Below, piece by piece: positions 22,318-51,206 of a stretch of DNA of 64,000 nucleotides (positions are counted from its first letter, which is position 1; every line of letters begins with the position of its first letter). The notes beneath the pieces are model-generated. The model saw only the letters and a program-made list of their open reading frames with translations. It did no database searches and was not told the DNA's origin. The translations under genes and the position numbers were made by a program. Origin of the DNA: Saprospiraceae bacterium (GTDB taxonomy: Bacteria > Bacteroidota > Bacteroidia > Chitinophagales > Saprospiraceae); NCBI GenBank assembly GCA_025056735.1, contig JANWVR010000059.1:1-64000 (forward strand), written 5' to 3'.

Positions 22318-22649
22318 GAAGAATTGCCGATTAAATGCACTGCTAAAGGGCAGCAAAGATAGCGGCCCCGCAACGACCAAACTCTTTTTGCCGGCCCAAC
22401 TACAGAAGCGCAAAGAGCAAAAAAGGATAGCCTAAACCGCAACTGCTAAATGGTGAACCGGCCTGAAAGCCTTGCTTCAACGCTCTCCTTCTATGTCGGA
22501 GTTCTCTTTACTTCTGCCCAAACGCGAAAAAAAGCGCGCTTCCGTTGAGCTATAACTTTTGGAAGGGGATAGCGCATGATGAAAAAATGTGCACTTTTGC
22601 CGCACATACCGAAAACTATTCTCAAACCTTTCAACAACACTGCTCTCTT
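22318..22649. promoter_or_regulatory. Divergent intergenic region with a minus-strand -7 box
   Basis: 332 bases between the lipoprotein and the divergent peptide transporter. On the minus strand TTTG (22381-22378), a 16-base gap and TATCTTTG (22361-22354) form a good Bacteroidota promoter for the lipoprotein. For the transporter, TTTG at 22558-22561 and CACTTTTG at 22592-22599 look similar, but their spacing is too long to be convincing. Confidence 0.45.
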
Positions 22650-27308: not shown

Positions 27309-30038
27309 TTAAAAACGCAAGGAATAGCGAAATTCGGGTAAAATAGGCAATAAGGTGTATTGTACAGCGCGCACCTGCCCTGACGCCGAAACGCTAGCGC
27401 CGTCTAAATACATAAAAAAGGGATTGGGACGGTTGTAGACGTTGTAAGCGCCGAGCAAGATTTCATGGTGCAAACTTCGCGTTTGGAAGTGAACGCGGCA
27501 AGAAACGTCTAAGCGATGATAGTTGGGCAAGCGATAATTATTGACGCTTCCATAGATGAGCACTTCGCGCACCTGGGCGTTGTCGTCATGGGTTTGATGC
27601 TGAAATTTTAGCGCGGTTAGCGTGATAGGGTTCCCGCTGGCATAGACCCACAAAACCCTCATGTCGAGCCAGCGCGCCAGCCGTTGCTGAGCGCTCAGGT
27701 TGAGCACATGCGGGCGATCGAACCGGAATGGAAACGGCTGCCCTGCATTCAGATCGGGAAATTGCCGAATAGCCTGCGACCAGGTATAGGTCGCTGAAAG
27801 GGCCGTATGCCGAAAGCGTTTTTCTACCGACAATTCGACGCCTCTGGCCCAGCCCGAACCCGCGATGATGCGGTCTTCCCAGCCGCTGGCGTCTTCGGCG
27901 CCGGCAATCAGCAGCGCAGTCGTGGATGCCTTGAGAGCTAGCACTCGACTCAAACGCCGATAATAACCCTCTGCGGACACAGACCAGCCGTCGCCGACAA
28001 AGCCCAGACCCGCGGTGTACTGCCAGGTCTCCTCCGGCAACACGCGCGGCGTGGTGGGTACCCACAACTCGAAGGGAAAACTGAGGTTGAACGTCCCCAC
28101 CTGATGCAAAAACTGCCCCATGCGATGGTAGCCCGCCCATACCTGCCCATGCTTTAGCAAACGCTGAGACACGCGCAAACGCGGCTGAAAAAGCCTGAAC
28201 ACACGGTTGCGTATCTTAAAAGAACTCACGTGCAAACCAGCCTCTAAGCGCCCATTCCTGCTAAACTCCCAGGCTGCGTCCGCATACAGACTCGACTCAT
28301 CGGCTTTTACCCGCTCGCGATTGAACAGTGCCTTCGTCAAGGAGTCGGCTAATAACGGCGACTGGCCCGGCAGCAAGAAGTTGACCGTCAGGGCCCCCGG
28401 CTCGAAGGTATGAAAGGCGTAAGAGCCGCCGGCGTGTATTGTCAGCGCGTTAAGCGGCTTGAACTCCCAATCGGTCTGCAGCGAGGCATCTTCAATGAAA
28501 GTCTGGTAGCGCTGAGCATAATTGGCCAGCACTTTTCGCTTTGCCGAAGCAAGACTAAACGACTCCGACAGCAGGTCTTGCTGGCTTTGATAGTAAAAGC
28601 GGCTATATCGGAGAATGGTCTTGGCAAAAATGCCCGAGCGAAGCGTTCGACTCCAGCGCAAGGCCACTATATTATTGCCCCATATGGCGCCCAGTGCGTA
28701 TCGTTCGTTGAGCAGCGCCGTGGCCGAAGAAAACGTCTGCAAAAACTGGTTCCGAAACAGATCGCCGCCCGAGTAAAGGCTGAAATGCACCTGGTCGCGC
28801 TCCGAGAATTGATAATTAGCCTTGATAGTCAGGTCATAAAAGCGATACCGGGCTGCATCACCGGCCAAAAACAACGCGCCGCGGTACTGGCTGCGAAACA
28901 AACCTTGCCACAACTCCAAGGGCGTACGGCGCACACTTACTAAGAAGGCATTCTTAGGCATGCTCGCGCCCTCCGAAGAGCGCTCGCTCCGCCGAAGCTT
29001 GCGCAAAAAAGGGCCCTCAAATGAAAGCGAAGCCGCCAGCAACCCTACGGAAACCTCCCCGCCATACCGGTGCGGATTGCCGTCGCGCAGGCGAACATCT
29101 AATACCGAAGACGCTCGCCCTCCGTAACGGGCCGGAAAATCACCCTTCCACAACTGAGCATGATGAATCGCAGCCGATGGAAAAATAGAGATGATGCCCA
29201 GCGCATGACTGGGATTGTACACCGGCACGTCGTCCAGCAAGAACAAATTTTGGTCGGCGTTTCCGCCGCGCACATGCAGGCCACCCAATCCATCTACGCC
29301 GGCCACTACACCCGGAAGCAATGCTGCATAGCGCATCGGGTCGGCCTCTCCGCCCAGCATTGGCGCTTGACGCATATCGTCCGGCGATATGCGTCGCCCA
29401 CTCTCCAAAAGCACGGCTGAACCAGGAACAATCGCCGGTACATTCCGAATCGTTATTTCCGGCAGCGTAGCATCGGGCACCAAGCGAAAGGCAAAAAAAC
29501 GGTCGGCCTGCACCTCTAAAGTCGCGCTTTGAGGACGATGCCCTACATAATGAGCCGACATCCGCAGACGACCCTCGTATGCTTTAAAACTAAAAAAGCC
29601 GTACTCGTTGGTCGTCGTGCTTCCACCTACCCCGTTGCTTCCGCTCCACCTGACCGTGGCACCAATCAGCCATTCGCCGCTCTCGACATCGAGCACTCGA
29701 CCGCTCACAACGTACTCGCGCAACGCCCGTATGACCACCTGGTCATCGTGCCATTCCACCTTCACACGTGCGCATTCCGTCAGCCGTTCTAAAACACTCT
29801 TTAGCGCCTCTTCTTGAATGTCTACAGTTATTCGCGGACATGCTGAAAAAAAATTGGGTTGATAGCTGATGTTAACATGATGGCGCACTGCAATATCCTG
29901 AATAACCGTTTGCACTTCGCAATTAAAACACCGGGCGCTTACCCGTCGCTCCGCCACCTCGGTCTGAGCACACGCCAGCCCTAGTGGCAACGCCCACGCC
30001 AGGCAAACCCTCAAAAACGATAGAACACGGATGCGCAT
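27309..30038 (-). CDS. TonB-dependent receptor with STN and carboxypeptidase-regulatory domains
   Basis: 909 residues. A signal peptide (LSFLRVCLAWALPLGLACAQ) is followed by a secretin/TonB short N-terminal (STN) domain (about residues 35-105, CEVQTVIQDIAVRHHVNISY). A carboxypeptidase-regulatory-like domain (VVSGRVLDVESGEWLIGATV) comes next. The plug has MRYAALLPGVVAGVDGLG, LHVRGGNADQNLFLLDDVPV and SRASSVLDV-type sequence, and a 22-strand-type barrel completes the protein. The STN domain allows surface-signal transduction in FecA-like receptors, but no sigma or anti-sigma gene is adjacent here. The downstream DUF4249 lipoprotein is its partner. The substrate is not identifiable. Confidence 0.93.
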   Translation of the reverse strand: MRIRVLSFLRVCLAWALPLGLACAQTEVAERRVSARCFNCEVQTVIQDIAVRHHVNISYQPNFFSACPRITVDIQEEALKSVLERLTECARVKVEWHDDQVVIRALREYVVSGRVLDVESGEWLIGATVRWSGSNGVGGSTTTNEYGFFSFKAYEGRLRMSAHYVGHRPQSATLEVQADRFFAFRLVPDATLPEITIRNVPAIVPGSAVLLESGRRISPDDMRQAPMLGGEADPMRYAALLPGVVAGVDGLGGLHVRGGNADQNLFLLDDVPVYNPSHALGIISIFPSAAIHHAQLWKGDFPARYGGRASSVLDVRLRDGNPHRYGGEVSVGLLAASLSFEGPFLRKLRRSERSSEGASMPKNAFLVSVRRTPLELWQGLFRSQYRGALFLAGDAARYRFYDLTIKANYQFSERDQVHFSLYSGGDLFRNQFLQTFSSATALLNERYALGAIWGNNIVALRWSRTLRSGIFAKTILRYSRFYYQSQQDLLSESFSLASAKRKVLANYAQRYQTFIEDASLQTDWEFKPLNALTIHAGGSYAFHTFEPGALTVNFLLPGQSPLLADSLTKALFNRERVKADESSLYADAAWEFSRNGRLEAGLHVSSFKIRNRVFRLFQPRLRVSQRLLKHGQVWAGYHRMGQFLHQVGTFNLSFPFELWVPTTPRVLPEETWQYTAGLGFVGDGWSVSAEGYYRRLSRVLALKASTTALLIAGAEDASGWEDRIIAGSGWARGVELSVEKRFRHTALSATYTWSQAIRQFPDLNAGQPFPFRFDRPHVLNLSAQQRLARWLDMRVLWVYASGNPITLTALKFQHQTHDDNAQVREVLIYGSVNNYRLPNYHRLDVSCRVHFQTRSLHHEILLGAYNVYNRPNPFFMYLDGASVSASGQVRAVQYTLLPILPEFRYSLRF

Positions 30039-30206
30039 GCAATAGGATTACAAGCGCTAAAATTAAAACGGCGATCGCTTCTACAAGGCAGAAATTTAGA
30101 CGCCAGCGGTTTGGAGGCCATAAACGCACCGCGACACACACCTGTAGCCTATGGGCCAGGCATGTTCTATGCGCGCTTATGGGCTACCCTGCAACAGGCT
30201 TCGCAT

Positions 30207-30569
30207 CTACGCCCGCTCGCTCTCCGAGAGCAGCGGAGGCGGCGGTTCTTGCGTGTAGTCTATCAAAAGGCTGTATAACCCGCGCTGATAAATTATGTCC
30301 AACGCATGACGCAGCATCAGCGCCACGTCGGCCTCTGGGCGCTTGAGCAGCACCGGCAACAACGGCAACATCGGGATAAATAATGCCTATTTCAGCCTCA
30401 GTCTCTGTGTCTTCTGCCAAATACGTATCCACTCGAGCAACATATTTGGGCGCAATTTTAGTGGCCAGGAGCGCTCACTGATAGCACTGGCAAAACTATG
30501 ATGTACATCAGGCAACAAATAGCCCTCTAAGTAAGGATCCATGCCAGGAAAGGGAGACGTCGTGCGCAT
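30207..30569 (-). pseudogene. Decayed DUF4058 gene (frameshift plus internal deletion)
   Basis: Three pieces of one DUF4058 protein lie in order on the minus strand but in different frames. The first is MRTTSPFPGMDPYLEGYLLP...VHHSFASAISER (from the ATG at 30569). Near 30475 the frame must shift to continue as LATKIAPKYVARVDTYLAED...IGIIYPDV. Near 30370 it shifts again to LPLLPVLLKRPEADVALMLR...YSLLIDYTQEPPPPLL, ending at TAG 30207. Intact DUF4058 proteins are roughly 250 residues or more; here the middle is missing. The second junction lies in TTGCCGTTGTTGCCG, a short direct repeat that could have mediated the deletion. Function of the family is unknown. Not expected to make a working protein. 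Confidence 0.82.
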
Positions 30570-30807
30570 GCGCCGAATTGCATATAGAATACAAAAAATA
30601 AAAGTAAACCAAAAGTCGCGCTGTGTTAGACGCCCCAAAGCAGCCAGATGCAAAAATGCCCTGCAATGCTATGCACTCGCTTTCTTGCCCTCTGCTTTCC
30701 CTTTGTTCGAGGCCTTATTGACGGTATTTTTTAGAAAAGAATGCGCAGTACTGTTCAACCAATCCATCAAAGGCGTGTTCTCTGGCTGCACAAAAAACAC
30801 TGCCGTC

Positions 30808-31416
30808 ATGTCTCAATTTCTTATGCTCTTTTCTTTTTTGTTTCTCTTCTCTGGCGCTTTCTTGAGCGGTTGTTTCGATGCCAATCAAATGGTTGCACGT
30901 CCGTCTGCTGCACATACGCAGAAGGCTTCGCTACCGTCGTCCACTTCCTTTTACCAGTTCACCGTCAACTCCTTGGATGGCCAACCGGTCTCCATGGAGC
31001 GCTTCCGTGGTAAGAAAATCGTCGTACTCAACGTTGCCTCCAAGTGCGGCTATACGCCACAATACGCCGATTGGGAAAAATTCTACCGCGAGCATCAGGA
31101 ACGCGTGGTGGTGTTGGGATTCCCTTGCAACGATTTCATGGGTCAAGAGCCGGGTTCCGCCAAGGAGATCGCCGAATTTTGTCAGAAGAACTACGGCGTT
31201 ACTTTCCCTATGTTCGAGAAAGTGCATGTTCGGGGCGACGCTAAGGCGCCCATCTACCGCTGGCTGACCGACCCGCAGCAGAACGGCTGGAACAGCCAGG
31301 AGCCAACATGGAACTTTTGCAAGTACTTGCTCAACGAAAAGGGAGAACTGACGCACTTCTTCGGGCCTAAGGTGAAGCCAGAGAGTGCGGAGTTTCGGGA
31401 GGCTTTGGGACTTTGA
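30808..31416 (+). CDS. Glutathione peroxidase family lipoprotein
   Basis: 202 residues. An N-terminal hydrophobic segment ends in the lipobox LSGC (Cys22), so the protein is probably lipid-anchored to an envelope membrane. The thioredoxin fold has the peroxidatic cysteine in NVASKCGYT (C80), the second signature LGFPCNDFMGQEPGS with the resolving cysteine, and the Trp/Asn of WNFCKYLL. It therefore has the Cys-type catalytic tetrad rather than selenocysteine. Such enzymes generally use thioredoxin rather than glutathione as reductant. The ATG at 30808 is chosen because the signal peptide begins there; a longer upstream frame lacks a signal. It converges on the glycerophosphodiesterase gene, with one repeat palindrome between them. 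Confidence 0.9.
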   Translation: MSQFLMLFSFLFLFSGAFLSGCFDANQMVARPSAAHTQKASLPSSTSFYQFTVNSLDGQPVSMERFRGKKIVVLNVASKCGYTPQYADWEKFYREHQERVVVLGFPCNDFMGQEPGSAKEIAEFCQKNYGVTFPMFEKVHVRGDAKAPIYRWLTDPQQNGWNSQEPTWNFCKYLLNEKGELTHFFGPKVKPESAEFREALGL

Positions 31417-31432
31417 GGGCGGATAACGAGTC

Positions 31433-31449
31433 GGCTAAACAAGTTTGGC
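31433..31449 (-). repeat. Single inverted copy of the AAACTTGTTT palindromic repeat
   Basis: Read on the minus strand, CCCAGTAACCGCCAAACTTG... continues to TTTAGCCG (31459-31432). The palindromic core is GCCAAAC-TT-GTTTAGC with one mismatched pair. Its TAA (31454-31452) is the stop codon of the glycerophosphodiesterase gene. The 23 bases from 31459 to 31437 are identical to 32407-32429, in inverted orientation. Confidence 0.85.
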
Positions 31450-31451
31450 GG

Positions 31452-32360
31452 TTACTGGGGGGTTCGATTAGGGTAGTCGGTGATGATGCCGTCCACACCA
31501 ATTTGAATAAGTCGGCGCATGGTTTCGGTGTCGTTGACCGTCCAGGGGATGAGTTTCATGCCCTTTTGGCGGCAGAAGCGCACCGTGGAAGGCTTGACGA
31601 GCGCGTGGTAGGGGCTGTAAATCGCTGGAGTAAAGCCCAATCGCTCGAGGTTTTTGGCCGGGCCGAGGAAGTTTTCTACCAATAAAGCCAGGGTTAATTG
31701 TGGGTTGAGCGCGCGCACGGCGCGCAGGGCGCGTGGGTCAAAGGACTGCACGGTGCAGGTACTCTGCAGTCCGAGGGCTGCGATTTCCTCCACCACTAAG
31801 CGAGCAAAAGTGTCTATTGGTGGCGTGCGGATGCCGTCCCATTCGGGTCGGCTCTTGATTTCAATGTTCCAACGCACAGCCCGGTTCGGGTAGGCGGCAC
31901 GCACGGCCTCCACTACTTCGCGCAGCGTAGGTTTATGTGCGGGCTGTGGTGTCTGCTCCGGGAAGCGTGGGTGGCGCAGGCTGCCACAGTCGTAAGCGCG
32001 TATTTCGGCAGCGGTGAGCTGGTACAGAAAGACCTTTTCGGCCTCAGCGGCAGGTATGCGGCTACCGTCGGGCCGCCGGCAGATGTCGGCGTTGAACCAC
32101 GGCTCATGGCTCACAATCAGATGACGGTCTTTCGACACCGCCAGATCGAGCTCCAGCGTCGTTATCTGCGGGAACTCCAGCGCGCGCAAAAAGCCCGGCA
32201 CGCTGTTCTCTGGCGCCAGACCGCGCGCACCGCGGTGTCCCTGCCAGTCAAAGCCGGGCGGTATCGTTACGGGCTTGTTTTCCAACGATTTACATGCAAC
32301 AAAAAAAAGCAGCAGCCAGGCAAAATGCCCGCCTATGAAATGCAAATTTGGCACAGTCAT
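31452..32360 (-). CDS. Glycerophosphodiester phosphodiesterase, lipoprotein
   Basis: 302 residues. The N-terminus LHFIGGHFAWLLLFFVACKS is a lipoprotein signal (lipid cysteine about residue 23). The TIM-barrel GDPD domain has the catalytic pair of histidines in GHRGARGLAPENSV and IVSHEPWF, metal-binding acidic residues in TTLELDLAVSKD, and the later EIKSRPEW. The enzyme splits glycerophosphodiesters into glycerol 3-phosphate and an alcohol at the cell envelope, salvaging phospholipid head groups. The gene is bracketed by inverted copies of the palindromic repeat: its stop codon lies inside one, and the four-copy array begins 57 bases upstream of its start. Confidence 0.93.
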   Translation of the reverse strand: MTVPNLHFIGGHFAWLLLFFVACKSLENKPVTIPPGFDWQGHRGARGLAPENSVPGFLRALEFPQITTLELDLAVSKDRHLIVSHEPWFNADICRRPDGSRIPAAEAEKVFLYQLTAAEIRAYDCGSLRHPRFPEQTPQPAHKPTLREVVEAVRAAYPNRAVRWNIEIKSRPEWDGIRTPPIDTFARLVVEEIAALGLQSTCTVQSFDPRALRAVRALNPQLTLALLVENFLGPAKNLERLGFTPAIYSPYHALVKPSTVRFCRQKGMKLIPWTVNDTETMRRLIQIGVDGIITDYPNRTPQ

Positions 32361-32406
32361 TTACAACGCCTTTTCTTTGAGCGCCTTTTTGGCACGCCCA
32401 AAGGTA

Positions 32407-32510
32407 CCCAGTAACCGCCAAACTTGTTTGGCCCGGTACCGGCTAAACTTGTTTAGCCCAATAACCGCCAAACTTGTTTGGCCCAGTACCGGTTAAACTT
32501 GTTTAGCCAT
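32407..32510 (+). repeat. Four palindromes at exact 25-bp spacing
   Basis: Two tandem 50-bp units each hold two related palindromes: GCCAAACTTGTTTGGC at 32417-32432 and 32467-32482, and GG(C/T)TAAACTTGTTTAGCC at 32441-32458 and 32491-32508. Their centres are exactly 25 bases apart throughout. Linkers read CCGGTACC or CCCAATAACC. The array fills most of the gap between the divergent glycerophosphodiesterase and SCP2 genes, so it would lie in both promoter regions. Each palindrome could fold as a hairpin with a CTTG tetraloop. Confidence 0.9.
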
Positions 32511-32532
32511 CCAACCGGAAAAAACACGCCAC

Positions 32533-32847
32533 ATGCTCGACGTTAAACAATTCCTTCTTGACCTTCCCAACCGCGTTAACCCCGAAGATATTCAGGGCGA
32601 ACAGGCTACCTTCCACTTTGACATTGCTGACGCTGGCCAGTTCACCGTCCGCATCGAAAACGACCAGGTGAGCGTTAGCGAGGGGCTCACCGGTGAGGCT
32701 ACTTCATCGGTAAAAACTTCTGCCGAGGCTTTTTCTAAAATCCTGGCCGGCGATCTGAATCCTATGATGGCCATGATGACGGGTAAACTCTCTGTACGCA
32801 ATCCGGGCGGAATACTCAAATATGCGAAAATGTTCGGGCTGATGTAA
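32533..32847 (+). CDS. SCP2 sterol-binding domain protein
   Basis: 104 residues covering a single SCP2 domain: ATFHFDIADAGQFTVRIEND, SSVKTSAEAFSKILAGDLNP, MMAMMTGKLSVRNPGGILKY. Members bind lipids or acyl-CoA in a hydrophobic tunnel. Bacterial stand-alone SCP2 proteins have no firmly assigned ligand. Cytoplasmic, no signal sequence. The gene starts 25 bases after the four-palindrome array, which therefore occupies its promoter or leader. Confidence 0.9.
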   Translation: MLDVKQFLLDLPNRVNPEDIQGEQATFHFDIADAGQFTVRIENDQVSVSEGLTGEATSSVKTSAEAFSKILAGDLNPMMAMMTGKLSVRNPGGILKYAKMFGLM

Positions 32848-32930
32848 TTGTGCTTCTTTAACGCAAATCAGCAGCGGAAGGACGGGGCGCTCGCTTGTGC
32901 GGTGGATAACTCGTGTTATCTGACCAGTCG

Positions 32931-33341
32931 TTACTCTTCATCGAGGTCCCATTCAAAAGCGCTTTCTTTGAACTCATCGAGTTCGCGGCGCTCTTTTTTA
33001 GTAGGGCGTCCTGCGCCTTTTTCGCGCTTTTCGGCGCCGCCGGCGGCGTTGAGGAACCAGGCGTTGTATTTATTTCGTTCTTCAGCAGGTGTAATGTCTT
33101 CGTAGCAGGTGGCGGCAATGGGCGCTCCGACGCGCTTTTCGAGGACTTGCAGCACGCGGTACTGGAAATTGAAGCCCGCTTTGCGCACGGTGAGAATGTC
33201 GCCCAAACCAATGAGGTGCGAGGGCTTGAGCGGCTCGCCTTCTATCCGCACGCGGCCGGCTTTGCAGGCTTCTGTAGCCAGCGTACGGCTTTTAAAAATG
33301 CGCACGCTCCACAGCCACTTATCCACGCGGACTTTTGTCAT
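32931..33341 (-). CDS. S4-domain RNA-binding protein, Hsp15-like
   Basis: 136 residues. The S4 RNA-binding domain starts at MTKVRVDKWLWSVRIFKSRT and continues CKAGRVRIEGEPLKPSH (about residues 3-60), a match to the Hsp15/YrfH group that binds 50S subunits carrying stalled nascent chains. The C-terminus is charged and helical (GRPTKKERRELDEFKES), also usual for the group. The ATG at 33341 is selected because upstream in-frame sequence has no homology and covers the TATCTTTG promoter box. Confidence 0.88.
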   Translation of the reverse strand: MTKVRVDKWLWSVRIFKSRTLATEACKAGRVRIEGEPLKPSHLIGLGDILTVRKAGFNFQYRVLQVLEKRVGAPIAATCYEDITPAEERNKYNAWFLNAAGGAEKREKGAGRPTKKERRELDEFKESAFEWDLDEE

Positions 33342-33370
33342 AAAGCGCTGAAATTCTAATTTTAAGACGA

Positions 33371-33378
33371 CAAAGATA
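33371..33378 (-). promoter_or_regulatory. -7 promoter box for the S4-domain gene
   Basis: The minus strand reads TATCTTTG, an exact TAnnTTTG match, 30 bases before the ATG. No good -33 box at normal spacing. Confidence 0.4.
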
Positions 33379-33481
33379 GACGCGCCCAAGCCGTTTTTCC
33401 ACGCCAAAAGGGCGCCTTTTCCCCAGCTAAAGGTGGATAACTTAACATACTTCAAGCAACGGCATTTCTCCCTTGCTCACC

Positions 33482-33489
33482 TATCTTTG
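33482..33489 (+). promoter_or_regulatory. -7 promoter box for the UPF0173 gene
   Basis: TATCTTTG, followed by the ATG 33 bases later, is one of the best TAnnTTTG matches on the plus strand. The -33 region holds only TTTC, a weak match. Confidence 0.5.
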
Positions 33490-33521
33490 CCTGGTTTTTT
33501 GGGTAAAAAAGGACTTTTTCC

Positions 33522-34208
33522 ATGAAAATCACCTACTTTGGGCATTCATGTTTCCTGCTGGAGGCCGGCGGCAAGCGCTTGCTGTTCGATCCCTTTGTAT
33601 CGGGCAATCCGCTGGCCACAGGCGTCCGCGTGGAAAATATCCGCTGCGACTACGTGCTGATCACGCACGCGCACAGCGACCATGTCGCCGATGTGGAAAC
33701 GGTGATGAAGCATAACCCGGAGGCTACGATTATCGGCATTTGGGAAATCTACGCCCATTACAGCGCCAAAGGCTACAAGGCGCACCCCATGAATAAGGGC
33801 GGCTGGTGGACCTTCGATTTTGGGCGCGTGAAAATGGTCAATGCCGTGCACAGCAGTAGCTTCTCTGACGGCTCTTACGGCGGCGACCCCGTGGGCTTCG
33901 TACTCGACACGCCCGATGGCGTCCTTTACGTGGCCGGAGATACAGCACTTACCACCGACATGCAGCTTATCCCGCGCACCTGCCCGCCGCTGACAGCAGC
34001 CATACTGCCCATCGGCTCCAACTTCACCATGGACTACCACGACGCCGTGCTGGCCAGCGACTTCATTTCCTGCAACCACATCATTGGCTGCCACTTCGAT
34101 ACCTTCGGCTTCATCAAAATTGACCACGAACAGGCTCGGGCGGCATTCGCCGAAAAAGGCAAACACCTCCACCTCCCCGCTATTGGCGAAACTTTTAACG
34201 TCTCGTAA
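33522..34208 (+). CDS. UPF0173-type metal-dependent hydrolase (metallo-beta-lactamase fold)
   Basis: 228 residues with the metallo-beta-lactamase fold. MKITYFGHSCFLLEAGGKRL opens the fold, and the zinc ligands are THAHSDH (His49, His51, Asp53, His54), with later histidines in VNAVHSSSF and IIGCHFDTFGF and an aspartate in VAGDTALTTD. The length and motif order match the UPF0173/YtkL family of cytoplasmic hydrolases, whose substrate is not established. The stop codon TAA at 34206-34208 is the first element of the 77-bp repeat array, so the 3' end of the transcript begins inside the repeat. Confidence 0.92.
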   Translation: MKITYFGHSCFLLEAGGKRLLFDPFVSGNPLATGVRVENIRCDYVLITHAHSDHVADVETVMKHNPEATIIGIWEIYAHYSAKGYKAHPMNKGGWWTFDFGRVKMVNAVHSSSFSDGSYGGDPVGFVLDTPDGVLYVAGDTALTTDMQLIPRTCPPLTAAILPIGSNFTMDYHDAVLASDFISCNHIIGCHFDTFGFIKIDHEQARAAFAEKGKHLHLPAIGETFNVS

Positions 34209-34542
34209 CGGCCAAACTTGTTTGGCCCAAATCTTAGCAATAAAAAACGCCGTATCAAAAGCAAAATAATTGCCATGCCTCGTAACGGCCAAACTTGTTT
34301 GGCCCAAATGTTAGCAATAAAAAGCGCCGTATCGCAAGCAAAATCATCGCCAGGTCTCGTAACGGCCAAACTTGTTTGGCCCAAATGTTAGCAATAAAAA
34401 GCGCCGTATCGCAAGCAAAATCATTGCCAGGTCTCGTAACGGCCAAACTTGTTTGGCCCAAATGTTAGCAATAAAAAACGCCGTATCGCAAGCAAAATCA
34501 TCACCAAGCCTCGTAACGGCCAAACTTGTTTGGCCCAAATGT
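34204..34542 (+). repeat. Tandem 77-bp repeat, four units plus a partial fifth, each with an 18-bp palindrome
   Basis: CGTAACGG starts at 34204, 34281, 34358, 34435 and 34512, exactly 77 bases apart. Every unit opens with the palindrome GGCCAAACTTGTTTGGCC (34210-34227, 34287-34304, 34364-34381, 34441-34458, 34518-34535), followed in the four full units by a conserved AT-rich stretch including TTAGCAATAAAAA and CGCCGTATC. Copies 2-4 differ by only a few bases; copy 1 has diverged more. The fifth stops after the palindrome and CAAATGTT, 24 bases before parA. 77 is not a multiple of three, so the array is not coding. It fills the gap between the UPF0173 gene and parA. Confidence 0.95.
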
Positions 34543-34566
34543 TTTTTCAATAAAAAACACTCCATC

Positions 34567-35337
34567 ATGGGTAAAATTATCACGATAGCCAACCAGAAAG
34601 GCGGCGTAGGCAAAACGACCACCGCCATCAACTTAGCAGCCTCGTTAGCGATTTTGGAAAAGCGTGTGCTGCTCATTGACGCCGACCCACAAGCCAATGC
34701 CTCATCGGGCGTAGGCGTCATCACCGACGAAAACTCCGTAGGTCTTTACGACTGCATTGTTGGCGGCGCCGACCCGCGTGAAGTCATTGTGGCTACCGAA
34801 ACGCCTAATCTGTGGCTGCTGCCGTCGAGCATCAACTTGGTGGGCGCCGATGTGGAATTGGTCAGCCGGCCCAGACGCGAGTATATCCTGCGCGACATCG
34901 TTCAACAGGTGCGCGACGACTACGATTTCATCTTTATTGATTGCCTGCCTTCGCTGGGTCTTATCACTGTGAATGCCCTAGTGGCTGCCGACACGGTGCT
35001 CATCCCGGTGCAATGCGAAATGTTCTCCTTCGAGGGTCTGGCCAAGCTGAAAAACACCATCGCTTTGGTGAAGCAGGGATACAACCCCAACCTTAAGGTG
35101 GAAGGGCTGCTGATTTCGATGTACGACAGCCGCCTGCGCTTAGCCAACGCCATCGTGGAGGAGGTGCGCAACAGCAGCAGCGACTACGTGTTCGAGACCA
35201 TCATCCACCGCAACGCCCGCGTAGCCGAAGCGCCCATGCAGCACGTGCCTGTGGCCATGTACGACGTGAACAGCAAGGGAGCAGTGAATTTCTTCAACTT
35301 AGCCAACGAATTCCTGCAGCGCAACGCCGCGAATTAA
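34567..35337 (+). CDS. parA: Chromosome partitioning ATPase ParA (Soj)
   Basis: A 256-residue Walker-type partition ATPase. The deviant Walker A motif KGGVGKTT is at residues 11-18, switch regions [12 protein letters not shown] and [12 protein letters not shown] follow, and [15 protein letters not shown] is characteristic of chromosomal Soj proteins. It lacks the N-terminal helix-turn-helix of plasmid type Ia ParA. Binds nucleoid DNA with ATP and helps ParB-DNA complexes separate. The ATG at 34567 is selected because [13 protein letters not shown] is the conserved start; frames that extend upstream only read through the 77-bp repeats. Followed by parB after 8 bases. Confidence 0.96.
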
Positions 35338-35345
35338 CTGTCAGC

Positions 35346-36257
35346 ATGTCGAAAAAACTAAACAAAGCCGATTTTGGCAAAGGCATCCGCGCCCTGTTGG
35401 CTAATCCAGTCGAACTGGAACAGGCCGTCCAGGAAAACCCGCAAGCCGTTGTGCGCGAACTGACGCACACGGTAGCCATGCTGCCCATTGAACAGATCGA
35501 GGCCAATCCCTTCCAACCGCGCACCGAATTTGACCAGGAGGCGCTGCAAGAACTGGCCGACAGCATTCGCGTGCACGGTCTCATCCAACCCGTTACGGTG
35601 CGCCGGTTGCACGATCGCGCTTACCAGCTCATCTCCGGTGAACGCCGCTTCCGCGCCTGCCAGATGGCCGGCCTCACCGAAATACCTGCTTACGTCCGCT
35701 TAGCCGACGATCAGCAAATGCTGGAAATGGCGCTCATTGAAAATATCCAGCGCCAGGACCTCAACGCCATCGAAATCGCCATCTCGTACCAGCGCCTTAA
35801 AGAAGAGTGCAGCCTGACCGACGAGCAACTCTCCGAGCGCGTAGGCAAACAACGCAGCACCATTACCAACTACCTGCGCCTGCTCAAATTGCCCGTAGAC
35901 ATCCAGCAGGCCATCAAAAACGGCTCCATTACCATGGGCCATGCCCGCGCTTTAGCCGGCGTGAGCGACATCGCCTTCCAGATCTCGCTTCTGCGCCAAA
36001 TCCTCAAAGACGACCTCTCCGTGCGCGCCGTCGAGGACATTATCGCCCGACACCAGGCCGAACGTCTGGGCAAAAAAGCCCGCCCCGACAAACGCCTGCC
36101 CGACGCCCTGCGCGACGTGCAAGACCGTTTCAGCGCCTTCTTCGGCGCCAAAGTAGACCTCAAACGCAACGACCGCGGCAAAGGACAAATCGTTATCAAA
36201 TTCGACAACGACGCAGAACTAAACCGCATCTTAGACATCATTGCAGAAAAAGACTAA
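35346..36257 (+). CDS. parB: Chromosome partitioning protein ParB (Spo0J)
   Basis: A 303-residue DNA-binding CTPase. The N-terminal KGIRALL resembles the ParA-contact peptide. The ParB/Srx domain has IEANPFQPRTEFD, the CTP-binding GERRFRA (98-104) and ENIQRQDLN (132-140). The central helix-turn-helix (about 157-183, TDEQLSERVGKQRSTITNYL) recognises parS in relatives. The C-terminal dimerisation segment ends KIDNDAEL-like sequence (FDNDAELNRILDIIAEKD). It is co-transcribed with parA. No canonical parS (TGTTTCACGTGAAACA) was found nearby by eye, which makes the adjacent palindrome array worth testing as a target. Confidence 0.96.
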   Translation: MSKKLNKADFGKGIRALLANPVELEQAVQENPQAVVRELTHTVAMLPIEQIEANPFQPRTEFDQEALQELADSIRVHGLIQPVTVRRLHDRAYQLISGERRFRACQMAGLTEIPAYVRLADDQQMLEMALIENIQRQDLNAIEIAISYQRLKEECSLTDEQLSERVGKQRSTITNYLRLLKLPVDIQQAIKNGSITMGHARALAGVSDIAFQISLLRQILKDDLSVRAVEDIIARHQAERLGKKARPDKRLPDALRDVQDRFSAFFGAKVDLKRNDRGKGQIVIKFDNDAELNRILDIIAEKD

Positions 36258-36314
36258 GGCTGCCCAAACTACCTTCTGAGCATTTCGTCCGCTTATTCCA
36301 GGCGCTTTCTACCA

Positions 36315-36731
36315 CTAAAGCTGGCTTAAGACACACGCCTCAGGCCGTGCTACATCCGCCGGTAGCCACCCGTGCACGAGTGCACTTCGGAACAGGATCA
36401 GGTTATTGACGTAATGCTGAGAGCCCGACAGAATGTATTCGCCGGGCATGTTCCGCTGGTCGGTGTAGTACTGGAGGTAGGGAAACAGCTCCGGCATATT
36501 TTGTACCTCGTCCAGAATAACGCCGCCCTGATGGCGTTGCAGAAAACGATGAGGGTCTTCTCGCGCATATTGCTGACTTTCAGGCAACTTCACGTTAAGG
36601 TACTCATATCCGGGCCAAAGCTGCCGACAAAAAGCAGTCTTTCCCAACTACCGCGGGCCAGTAACGGCAATCATTGGGTACTTCGACAGCAGAGAGTTTG
36701 CCCGATCGTAGAGTTTTCGCTGAAGGAGCAT
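36315..36731 (-). pseudogene. Decayed AAA_14/DUF4143-type ATPase with amber codon in Walker A
   Basis: From the ATG at 36731 the minus strand encodes LLQRKLYDRANSLLSKYPMI, then AVTGPR, a TAG at 36650-36648, and LGKTAFCRQLWPGYEYLNV. In the family this position is glutamine or a similar residue of GPRQVGKT, so CAG has become TAG. Past it the sequence is normal (GGVILDEVQNMPELF, YILSGSQH), but it breaks off after about 110 codons. The rest of the ATPase and the DUF4143 nuclease-like domain, which bring the usual length to around 380-400 residues, are missing. Such ATPases are common accessory genes in Bacteroidota. Both lesions argue against function. Confidence 0.85.
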
Positions 36732-36842
36732 GCGGACAAAGTTATGCAAACCTTGCCGCCGAGTGCAGCTGTCTGAATAGACAAAGGCGCTTCGCTTTCG
36801 AGCGCAGCATGTCATCCGCTCACCCAATCCGTTCTTTCAGCC

Positions 36843-37217
36843 ATGCGATTTACCTATCTCCTCCTCGCCGGTGCAATCCTGTCCAGCGCCGCCCTGACGC
36901 TCACAGGCTGCCTGCGCGACGAATGCCGGAGCACGCTCACGTACGTGCGTTTTGAGCCTATTTTTATAATACCTGACGACTTCCGCAACACGACTGCCGT
37001 GGCAGAAGCGCCCCGCCCACTCCGAAAACCGGGCAAGCTGTACGCCATGGGACACTACCTGCTCATCAACGAGCGACACGAAGGCATCCACGTCTTCGAC
37101 AACAGCGATCCCAACCGCCCGCCAGTCAGCTCCATACCTGGCCACCTCCCATTACCCGGCACTAAAAAAAGCGACCAGTGGCTGCTGCAAGTCTCCATTT
37201 TCCGAAAGGTTTATTGA
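36843..37217 (+). pseudogene. Truncated LVIVD-type lipoprotein gene
   Basis: 124 codons. A lipoprotein signal (LLLAGAILSSAALTLTGC, lipid cysteine about residue 23) is followed by LRDECRSTLTYVRFEPIF, PRPLRKPGKLYAMGHYLLIN and EGIHVFDNSDPNRPPVS. This is the N-terminal start of the Bacteroidota LVIVD-repeat lipoproteins, where a seven-bladed propeller of repeated LLIN...GIHVFDN units should follow. Here homology stops after the first unit and a short unrelated tail (about 28 codons) ends the frame. Intact relatives are around 400 residues. It could still make a short lipoprotein, but it is more likely a remnant. Confidence 0.7.
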
Positions 37218-37238: not shown

Positions 37239-37289
37239 ATTTTTCACTTTTCACTTTTCACTTTCCATTTTTCACTTTTCACTTTTCAT
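37239..37289. repeat. Short tandem TTTTCAC repeat
   Basis: Two blocks of ACTTTTC-type heptamers (TTTTTCACTTTTCAC... and again TTTTTCACTTTTC...) separated by TTTCCA fill the gap between the lipoprotein remnant and the RNA methylase stop. The last few bases overlap the 3' end of the methylase gene. Similar pyrimidine-rich repeats are scattered in some Bacteroidota; no function is known. Confidence 0.75.
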
Positions 37290-51178: not shown

Positions 51179-51206
51179 CGGCGACCTTGCTAAACTTTTT
51201 TGGCCT
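51176..51206 (+). repeat. Decayed copy of the palindromic repeat
   Basis: After the dihydroorotase stop TAA (51176-51178), CGGCGACCTTGCTAAACTTT-type sequence continues to TTTGGCC. The core GCTAAACTTTTTTGGC at 51189-51204 differs from GCCAAACTTGTTTGGC at two positions. The stop-codon context (TCATAACGG here, TCGTAACGG at 34203) supports shared origin. Confidence 0.5.

Follow-up and report, generated by a model that had tools for sequence, protein, structure and literature searches.

The closest described relatives of the repeat analyzed in this study are the repetitive extragenic palindromes (REPs) of the GTAG super-family. As given in the accessible portion of a 2013 survey, they have stems of 6-13 bp and, in many families, loops of 2-3 nt, many of the TY type; they lie near gene 3' ends and often supply TAG stop codons (PMC3733652). 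Inverted dimers, head-head or tail-tail, are the rule in most genomes but are not defining, and the same portion of the survey records GTAG repeats in Proteobacteria, Cyanobacteria, Chloroflexi, and the PVC group, with Bacteroidetes under CGTC repeats only (PMC3733652). The GTAG tetranucleotide is described, in the part of the source available, as having a role in the cleavage of single-stranded DNA (PMC8266576), and in E. coli, REPs that lie no farther than 15 nt from a stop codon, as 446 of 4,072 predicted ones do, can lower translation, according to the part of that study considered here (PMC12306157). Here we analyze a stretch of 64,000 bp from Saprospiraceae bacterium (assembly GCA_025056735.1, contig JANWVR010000059.1, positions 1 to 64,000), further called the window, in which ten near-identical palindromes lie beside the partition genes parA and parB. 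These palindromes are probably units of a lineage-restricted REP-type repeat of the GTAG super-family type, ordinary in kind.

The unit consists of a C-rich stretch, a foot GTA(A/G/C)C, and a hairpin (G/C)GCCAAAC-TT-GTTTGGCC, as seen in 151 copies from the source genome (G000, a draft of 152 contigs) and 47 copies from a related genome, G035. The hairpin has an 8-bp stem and a TT loop, and the foot, mostly GTAAC or GTAGC, is unpaired. The GTA foot is located 5' of the TT strand in 132 of the 151 G000 and 37 of the 47 G035 copies, and a mirror foot on the opposite side occurs in 2 and 3 copies, respectively; the remaining copies have an altered foot (GTGC, GCAA, ATAA, and the like) or none. The unit is thus asymmetric, and a site for a symmetric dimer would have no need of such a foot. 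The commonest foot is GTAG in single copies (6 of 15 in G000, 8 of 20 in G035) and GTAA in array copies. Two-sided stem changes were found at positions 2-17 (G-C to A-T, 5 of 151 copies) and 4-15 (C-G to T-A, 3 of 151), counts in which copies of one array are not independent. In the arrays, the spacing is mostly 25 bp (51 cases) or 26 bp (24 cases), adjacent units have the same direction in 106 of 109 pairs and are inverted in three, and the longest array contains 12 units. Beside one unit, at L024:1150-1500, there is a long run of half-palindromes of about 13 bp (TGCTTGTTTGGCC and similar), as if the half-unit had been amplified alone.

The repeat is abundant and dispersed in the source genome. 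Its strict form, GSYNAAACTTGTTTNRSC, occurs 68 times (none in the control), and the 18-mer core has 63 exact copies and 158 copies at no more than one mismatch (control 0), with 106 copies of a core class having a different first base (control 0). At no more than three mismatches the counts are 212 forward and 211 reverse matches versus 4 and 2 in the control, the near-palindrome being counted on both strands. Clusters, that is, copies no more than 400 bp apart, were delineated for 163 copies, namely the 63 exact ones and the 100 listed of the 106 with the other first base; among these listed matches there are 58 clusters on 45 contigs. Of the same listed matches, the parAB stretch holds seven copies in two clusters, contig C87 is denser, its two clusters having 11 copies in a stretch of 3.2 kb, and there are six places in all, one of them parAB, where two clusters fall into a stretch of this length. 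Neighboring cluster pairs are slightly above random (6 versus 2.8 expected, P ~0.05). The sequence-only reading of the window had described the palindromes as concentrated around parAB, which is true inside the window only, and had named a wide scatter of copies in a genome-wide search as the mark of a REP-like element; that is what was observed, with more than 150 copies, in 58 clusters on 45 contigs among those listed. The parAB group looks like one ordinary cluster of the repeat family, with nothing about it that points to a special site of chromosome partition, and its link to parAB looks accidental.

Repeat arrays are located at the contig ends of C10, C11, C61, C110, and C142 of G000, where they probably break the assembly, so that copy numbers may be off; the C10/C61 and C11/C110 ends look like one locus each, since single G035 loci align across both.

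The positions of the units relative to genes were tabulated in 53 cluster rows, which are loci picked for exact or near-exact copies together with the window; genes were predicted with a custom codon model for which the window served as training sequence. On the foot side, 24 of 49 rows have a stop codon no more than 15 nt away, one of them counted twice since two C26 clusters were entered twice (L008 and L009 overlap), compared with 5 of 48 rows on the opposite side (Fisher P = 4e-5). The foot-side called gene ends at the unit in 31 of 49 rows, and the median distance to a gene is 12 bp at the foot but 70 bp at the opposite end. Among the 28 same-direction rows with both genes called, the stop codon precedes the core by exactly 1 bp in 11 rows and by 9 bp in six, with 1.07 expected in each case. 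The 1-bp spacing corresponds to rows in which the foot itself is the stop codon, TAA or TAG (12 of 53), and in four of the six 9-bp rows the stop codon abuts the start of the C-rich stretch, the other two being decayed copies without a proper foot. The 24 of 49 rows, counted here on selected loci, compare with 446 of 4,072 predicted REPs at this distance in E. coli in the available part of the source (PMC12306157).

With respect to the accessible descriptions of GTAG REPs, for instance SMAG of Stenotrophomonas maltophilia, the repeat is alike in being a short palindrome with a perfect 8-bp hairpin stem, a TY-type 2-nt loop (TT), and an unpaired 5' tetranucleotide foot, a degenerate GTAG tag at one end, and in occurring in high copy number (over 100 in G000), dispersed, in intergenic regions close to 3' ends, the tag often serving as the stop codon (PMC3733652; PMC8266576). 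It is unlike them in the GTAA foot of the array copies, the 25/26-bp head-to-tail arrays, the Saprospiraceae-like host, and in having a candidate REP-associated tyrosine transposase (RAYT) only (PMC3733652; PMC8266576). The predominance of inverted pairs, another trait of GTAG-type REPs, was not observed (3 of 109). Bacterial interspersed mosaic elements (BIMEs) and REPINs are clusters of REP units in alternating or inverted order; the present arrays are likewise clusters of REP units, but 106 of 109 neighbors point one way, and head-to-tail arrays are unusual for REPs. The GTAG-type REPs gain a Saprospiraceae-like family with head-to-tail arrays and frequent supply of stop codons. A text search of open-licence PMC found no paper with the palindrome sequence, and among the papers listed for Saprospiraceae and extragenic palindromes (12 of 699) none concerns this repeat by title.

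In the window, the ten palindromes occupy 31433-34535, with cores at 31433; 32416, 32441, 32466, and 32491; and 34210, 34287, 34364, 34441, and 34518, just where the sequence-only reading had placed them. A 16-mer search with up to three mismatches on both strands gave 21 matches in the window, compared with 0.93 on average and never more than 5 in 100 shuffles. The four central copies are arranged in tandem with a period of 25 bp, and the five copies beside parA with a period of 77 bp; each 77-bp period repeats the end of the hydrolase gene together with a spacer. The units and their neighbors are as follows.

22370..22392, plus strand: decayed copy, profile score 16.0 (intact unit 42.9)
31433..31455, minus strand: single unit, foot GTAAC and hairpin CGCCAAACTTGTTTAGCC, adjoining the 3' terminus of the GDPD-like gene 31452-32360 (minus strand), whose stop codon TAA at 31452-31454 it provides
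31452..32360, minus strand: glycerophosphodiester-phosphodiesterase-like (GDPD-like) gene, named by eye
32411..32433, plus strand: first unit of the 25-bp array, in a spacer between divergently oriented genes
32436..32458, plus strand: unit 2 of the 25-bp array, GTACC foot, GGCTAAACTTGTTTAGCC (C-G to T-A on both sides)
32461..32483, plus strand: unit 3 of the 25-bp array, ATAAC foot
32486..32508, plus strand: unit 4 of the 25-bp array, GTACC foot
32533..32847, plus strand: SCP-2 sterol-transfer-family protein (PF02036)
33522..34208, plus strand: metallo-beta-lactamase-fold hydrolase (PF12706/PF13483), ending at a unit
34202..34543, plus strand: 77-bp tandem array with five units (Tandem Repeats Finder)
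34205..34227, plus strand: first unit of the array in front of parA; the hydrolase stop codon, 34206-34208, is in its GTAA
34282..34304, plus strand: unit 2 of the 77-bp period array
34359..34381, plus strand: unit 3 of the 77-bp period array
34436..34458, plus strand: unit 4 of the 77-bp period array
34513..34535, plus strand: unit 5 of the 77-bp period array, with the parA start codon (34567) 31 bp further on
34567..35337, plus strand: parA (AAA_31/CbiA)
35346..36257, plus strand: parB (ParB_N, HTH_ParB, ParB_C)
51183..51205, plus strand: decayed copy, profile score 12.6 (intact unit 42.9)

The start of parA was set at 34567, the point from which it matches its relatives, the start given by the gene caller being too early. 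With this start all ten 18-bp cores lie outside genes, in agreement with the earlier description of the palindromes as intergenic, but the GTAA foot extends into coding regions by forming the stop codons at 34206-34208 and 31452-31454. Likewise, the decayed copy at 51183-51205 had been noticed before as the only one elsewhere in the window, and the copy at 22370-22392 is a second one that had gone unlisted. Where the unit differs, so does the gene end. The C-terminus of the GDPD-like protein is ...NRTPQ in G000, ...NRTP in G035, and ...NRIPQQMPTSPGRS in genome G002, which has no intact unit there; the C-termini of the hydrolase are ...ETFNVS in G000, ...ETFNISNG in G035, where the stop codon is inside the palindrome, and ...ETLHIS in G002, again without a unit.

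Of the 59 relatives searched, a single one, G035, has many copies. A search at no more than one mismatch in 60 genomes, including G000, found 72 copies in G035, one in G007, and none in 57. We call G035 the closest relative from the parAB DNA, not from a tree: it is 87.3% identical there versus 82.5% for G002, while ParA of both is 95% identical. An exact-match scan of species genomes produced 38 stretches, 23 of them in one uncultured Saprospiraceae metagenome-assembled genome, CALJPQ, taken as G035; the others are distributed by one, or two to three, per genome in Planctomycetota and others. There are two exact matches to the palindrome in viral contigs.

The three places around parAB have one, four, and five units in G000 versus one, two, and two in G035, and in 12-14 kb around parAB of G002, G011, and G061 no units were found. 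The hydrolase-parA-parB order is common to these three genomes, with the SCP2 gene adjoining in G002 and G011 and the GDPD-like gene only in G002. In total, 14 orthologous places were compared, and all of them carry units in G035 too, in other numbers. Over the 14 paired copies, which were chosen by eye, one of them not being the first copy of its array, the identity is 236/252 in the core, 574/831 in the 55 nt upstream, and 430/922 in the 60 nt downstream, a comparison biased upward because both sides were selected by the presence of copies. Of the 23 CALJPQ loci, several have no or only a weak G000 counterpart among the examined loci and were left unscored. One clear difference in occupancy was found: locus L024 of G000 is occupied, whereas the corresponding G035 locus, L071, is empty, the gene there ending in CAGTAAG. 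A second difference is doubtful. There is a unit in G035 at L052:7322, where G000 (L086) has GTAATTGCAAAG and a TTTTCAC tract, and the G000 stretch beginning GTAATTGCAAAG (profile score 3.1) could be the remains of a unit and not a vacant place. The two close species with the family, together with two near relatives without it at no more than one mismatch, offer a good setting for studying the origin of a REP, the enzyme that spreads it, and any tuning of upstream translation.

We suggest that the family would have spread by REP-type single-strand copying, in which a TnpA_REP/RAYT enzyme of the HUH type would read the foot together with the hairpin. The spread would then be followed by local tandem duplication through slippage or recombination, and the survivors would mainly be insertions located in spacers or placed at a stop codon or behind it. 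More tentatively, the hairpin, once in the transcript, may reduce translation of the gene before it, as E. coli REPs can when they are no more than 15 nt from a stop codon. Another reading, which we consider improbable, is a REP lineage homing to stop codons: the unit would be placed 3' of GTAR, an xGTAA or xGTAG target at the gene end would be kept as the foot, and the element would consist of stop codon plus hairpin, later forming head-to-tail 3'-end arrays of changing length. The unoccupied alleles at GTAR are the clear CAGTAAG junction of L071 in G035 and the GTAA of L086 in G000, the latter possibly belonging to a decayed unit.

With the NF047646 profile, one REP-transposase-like gene each was found in G000 and G035, whereas G002 and G011 gave no match. 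The G000 gene is located at C145:12679-13311 (L174:1054-1686), with homologues in L173 and L178; the G000 and G035 proteins are 85% identical and share the same neighborhood. No Pfam family matched the protein. It contains NHVH, W176, Q177, D182, H183, R186, and Y197, with a tyrosine motif YILTNP, and the G035 protein aligns with TnpA_REP 4er8 over 40 residues (E = 2.8e-4), better-scoring PDB matches being to its low-complexity tract. A Pro-Asn-Ala tract in this protein differs in length between G000 and G035. The catalytic tyrosine of TnpA_REP is number 115. In the accessible part of the structural work, the contacts of TnpA_REP with GTAG are W94, Q95, E/D100, H101, and R104, and REP insertions inside the gene are a mark of TnpA_REP subclass 2.4 (PMC6006769). 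The candidate resembles this subclass, in so far as it is described there, in the W94-R104 spacing of its W, Q, D, H, and R residues and in having NHVH, WQ, YILTNP, and an in-gene GTAG...CTAC palindrome; the subclass is assigned by motif, and the palindrome, GTAGAGACGTTGCATGCAACGTCTCTAC, is not the repeat unit (PMC6006769). The presence of the gene in both repeat-bearing genomes and its absence from both near genomes without the repeat may indicate a link to the repeat, although this pattern is suggestive only. Earlier, no mobile gene had been seen linked to the palindromes; physical linkage was indeed not seen in the loci examined, but each repeat-bearing genome has one divergent REP-transposase-like gene.

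A number of observations weigh against the assignment to REPs. The GTAA foot is commoner than GTAG overall, the foot-side neighbor is a gene 5' end in 18 of 49 rows, one of 53 clusters is inside a weakly called open reading frame, and all 14 compared places are shared, so the direct evidence of movement is thin. As for the enzyme, PF01797 (Y1_Tnp) has no match in G000, G035, G002, and G011, versus 34 of 42 genomes of the genus matching. The NF047646 scores of the candidate, 58.4 and 65.3 bits, are below the cut-off of 80 and come from two stretches flanking a repeat-rich insert. In a REPtron, the cognate RAYT gene of a GTAG-type REP has copies of its own repeat on its flanks. No units at up to four mismatches were found within about 1 to 1.5 kb of the gene, and it carries inside its coding region a different, double-foot GTAG...CTAC palindrome, GTAGAGACGTTGCATGCAACGTCTCTAC (GTAGAGAC...GTCTCTAC), which at no more than three mismatches occurs at three places in G000, at four in G035, and at none in five other genomes of the genus. 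Homologues of the gene are present in 17 of 42 genomes of the genus, some of them without this repeat, and some of those in repeat-free genomes also carry their own different palindromes. Because of the different palindrome and the homologues in genomes without the repeat, the gene was not accepted as the cognate enzyme and remains a candidate only. The G025 homologue has a different palindrome at the same place. At no fewer than six of 20 Y1 transposase loci from other species of the genus (L099-L118), plainly repeated hairpins lie nearby, their sequences differing between species (for instance, L099, L103, L107, L110, L112, and L116).

The position of the window palindromes beside parAB makes a centromere tempting, and a centromere-like ParB target different from canonical parS had been proposed for them. 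Indeed, they resemble parS in being palindromic sites near parAB, ten of them within 3.1 kb, and all three places are occupied in G035 too. Nevertheless, this is an extremely unlikely explanation. The repeat has another sequence than parS, is spread genome-wide (58 clusters among the listed copies, with one stretch denser than parAB) and often at gene ends, and is asymmetric, the foot being on one side in 132 versus 2 of 151 copies; no unit was found around parAB of G002, G011, and G061. ParA and ParB match ordinary Pfam families, the best ParA match being 79-95% identical in the 36 other genomes of the genus that matched. Sites of parS type are located elsewhere: two sequences one mismatch from TGTTCCACGTGGAACA (canonical-type parS) are on contig C41 at 44131 and 45128, with starts 997 bp apart, one in a spacer and one in a gene. 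At up to three mismatches TGTTCCACGTGGAACA is no commoner than the control (9 and 9 versus 14 and 14), so only the two C41 sites carry weight. The parS consensus, TGTTNCACGTGNAACA, has no match in the window at two mismatches. The tempting reading of a new centromere beside parAB is thus not supported. It is also very unlikely that the units are operators through which a regulator governs parAB together with a group of further genes, as their palindromic form and location in spacers, including divergent ones such as 32416-32508, might suggest. The foot side faces gene 3' ends in 31 of 49 rows, the foot is asymmetric, and the 25/26-bp tandem arrays differ in number between species; an operator specific to parAB, as had been offered earlier, does not agree with the same unit standing beside many other genes, often just past the stop codon.

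That the units are transcription terminators or 3'-end mRNA elements under selection, and not mobile, would explain their sense orientation right behind stop codons, the core being better kept between species than the flanks (in the biased comparison given above), the double stem changes, and the strong hairpins (z-score -2.88 for the parA array). We regard this as unlikely, since TTTT within 10 nt downstream was found in only 3 of 52 clusters, gene 5' ends make up 18 of 49 foot-side neighbors, arrays reach 12 units, and the repeat is lineage-restricted, with 57 of 60 genomes having no match at up to one mismatch. No Rfam match above the gathering score was found in 30000-37000 of the window. 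Intrinsic terminators in particular were set aside, as 49 of 52 clusters have no T run. A terminator scan of the window gave nine terminator-like sites versus 5.9 expected, one of which is a unit (34518) and two of which span neighboring half-units (32426 and 32476). Finally, the head-to-tail 25/26-bp arrays with copy numbers changing between species, as well as the lack of an identified cognate RAYT, would fit tandem repeats born by slippage without transposition, from a single seeding and then carried from spacer to spacer by recombination or conversion. This is quite unlikely, however, because one unit is common to 58 dispersed clusters, including single copies, and tandem slippage alone does not disperse.

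A possible trace of the repeat, and other small repeats, were noted in the relatives and in G000. In the sample from G002, a profile with softer weights has its best match, 11.1, at L150:1466-1488 versus 10.3 in the reversed-sequence control, and with the first weights none exceeded 8; this stretch, orthologous to the 32416-32508 array, is a possible decayed unit. Among a dozen other hairpins listed in each of the G002 (151.6 kb) and G011 (175.8 kb, partly N) samples, no repeated family was found, every 7-bp-stem hairpin occurring once. A CRISPR-like repeat is present in the G011 stretches (L151, L163-L172), with 12-mers of CTCGTAATCGAACCAGTTGGAATTGAAA found 50 times in the sample. A 7-bp unit, TTTTCAC or close to it, forms short spacer arrays in the window (37241-37288), in L086 (about 2010-2110), and in L147. 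One such array fills the G000 spacer whose G035 counterpart contains the palindromic unit, and a further one is located upstream of parA in G012.

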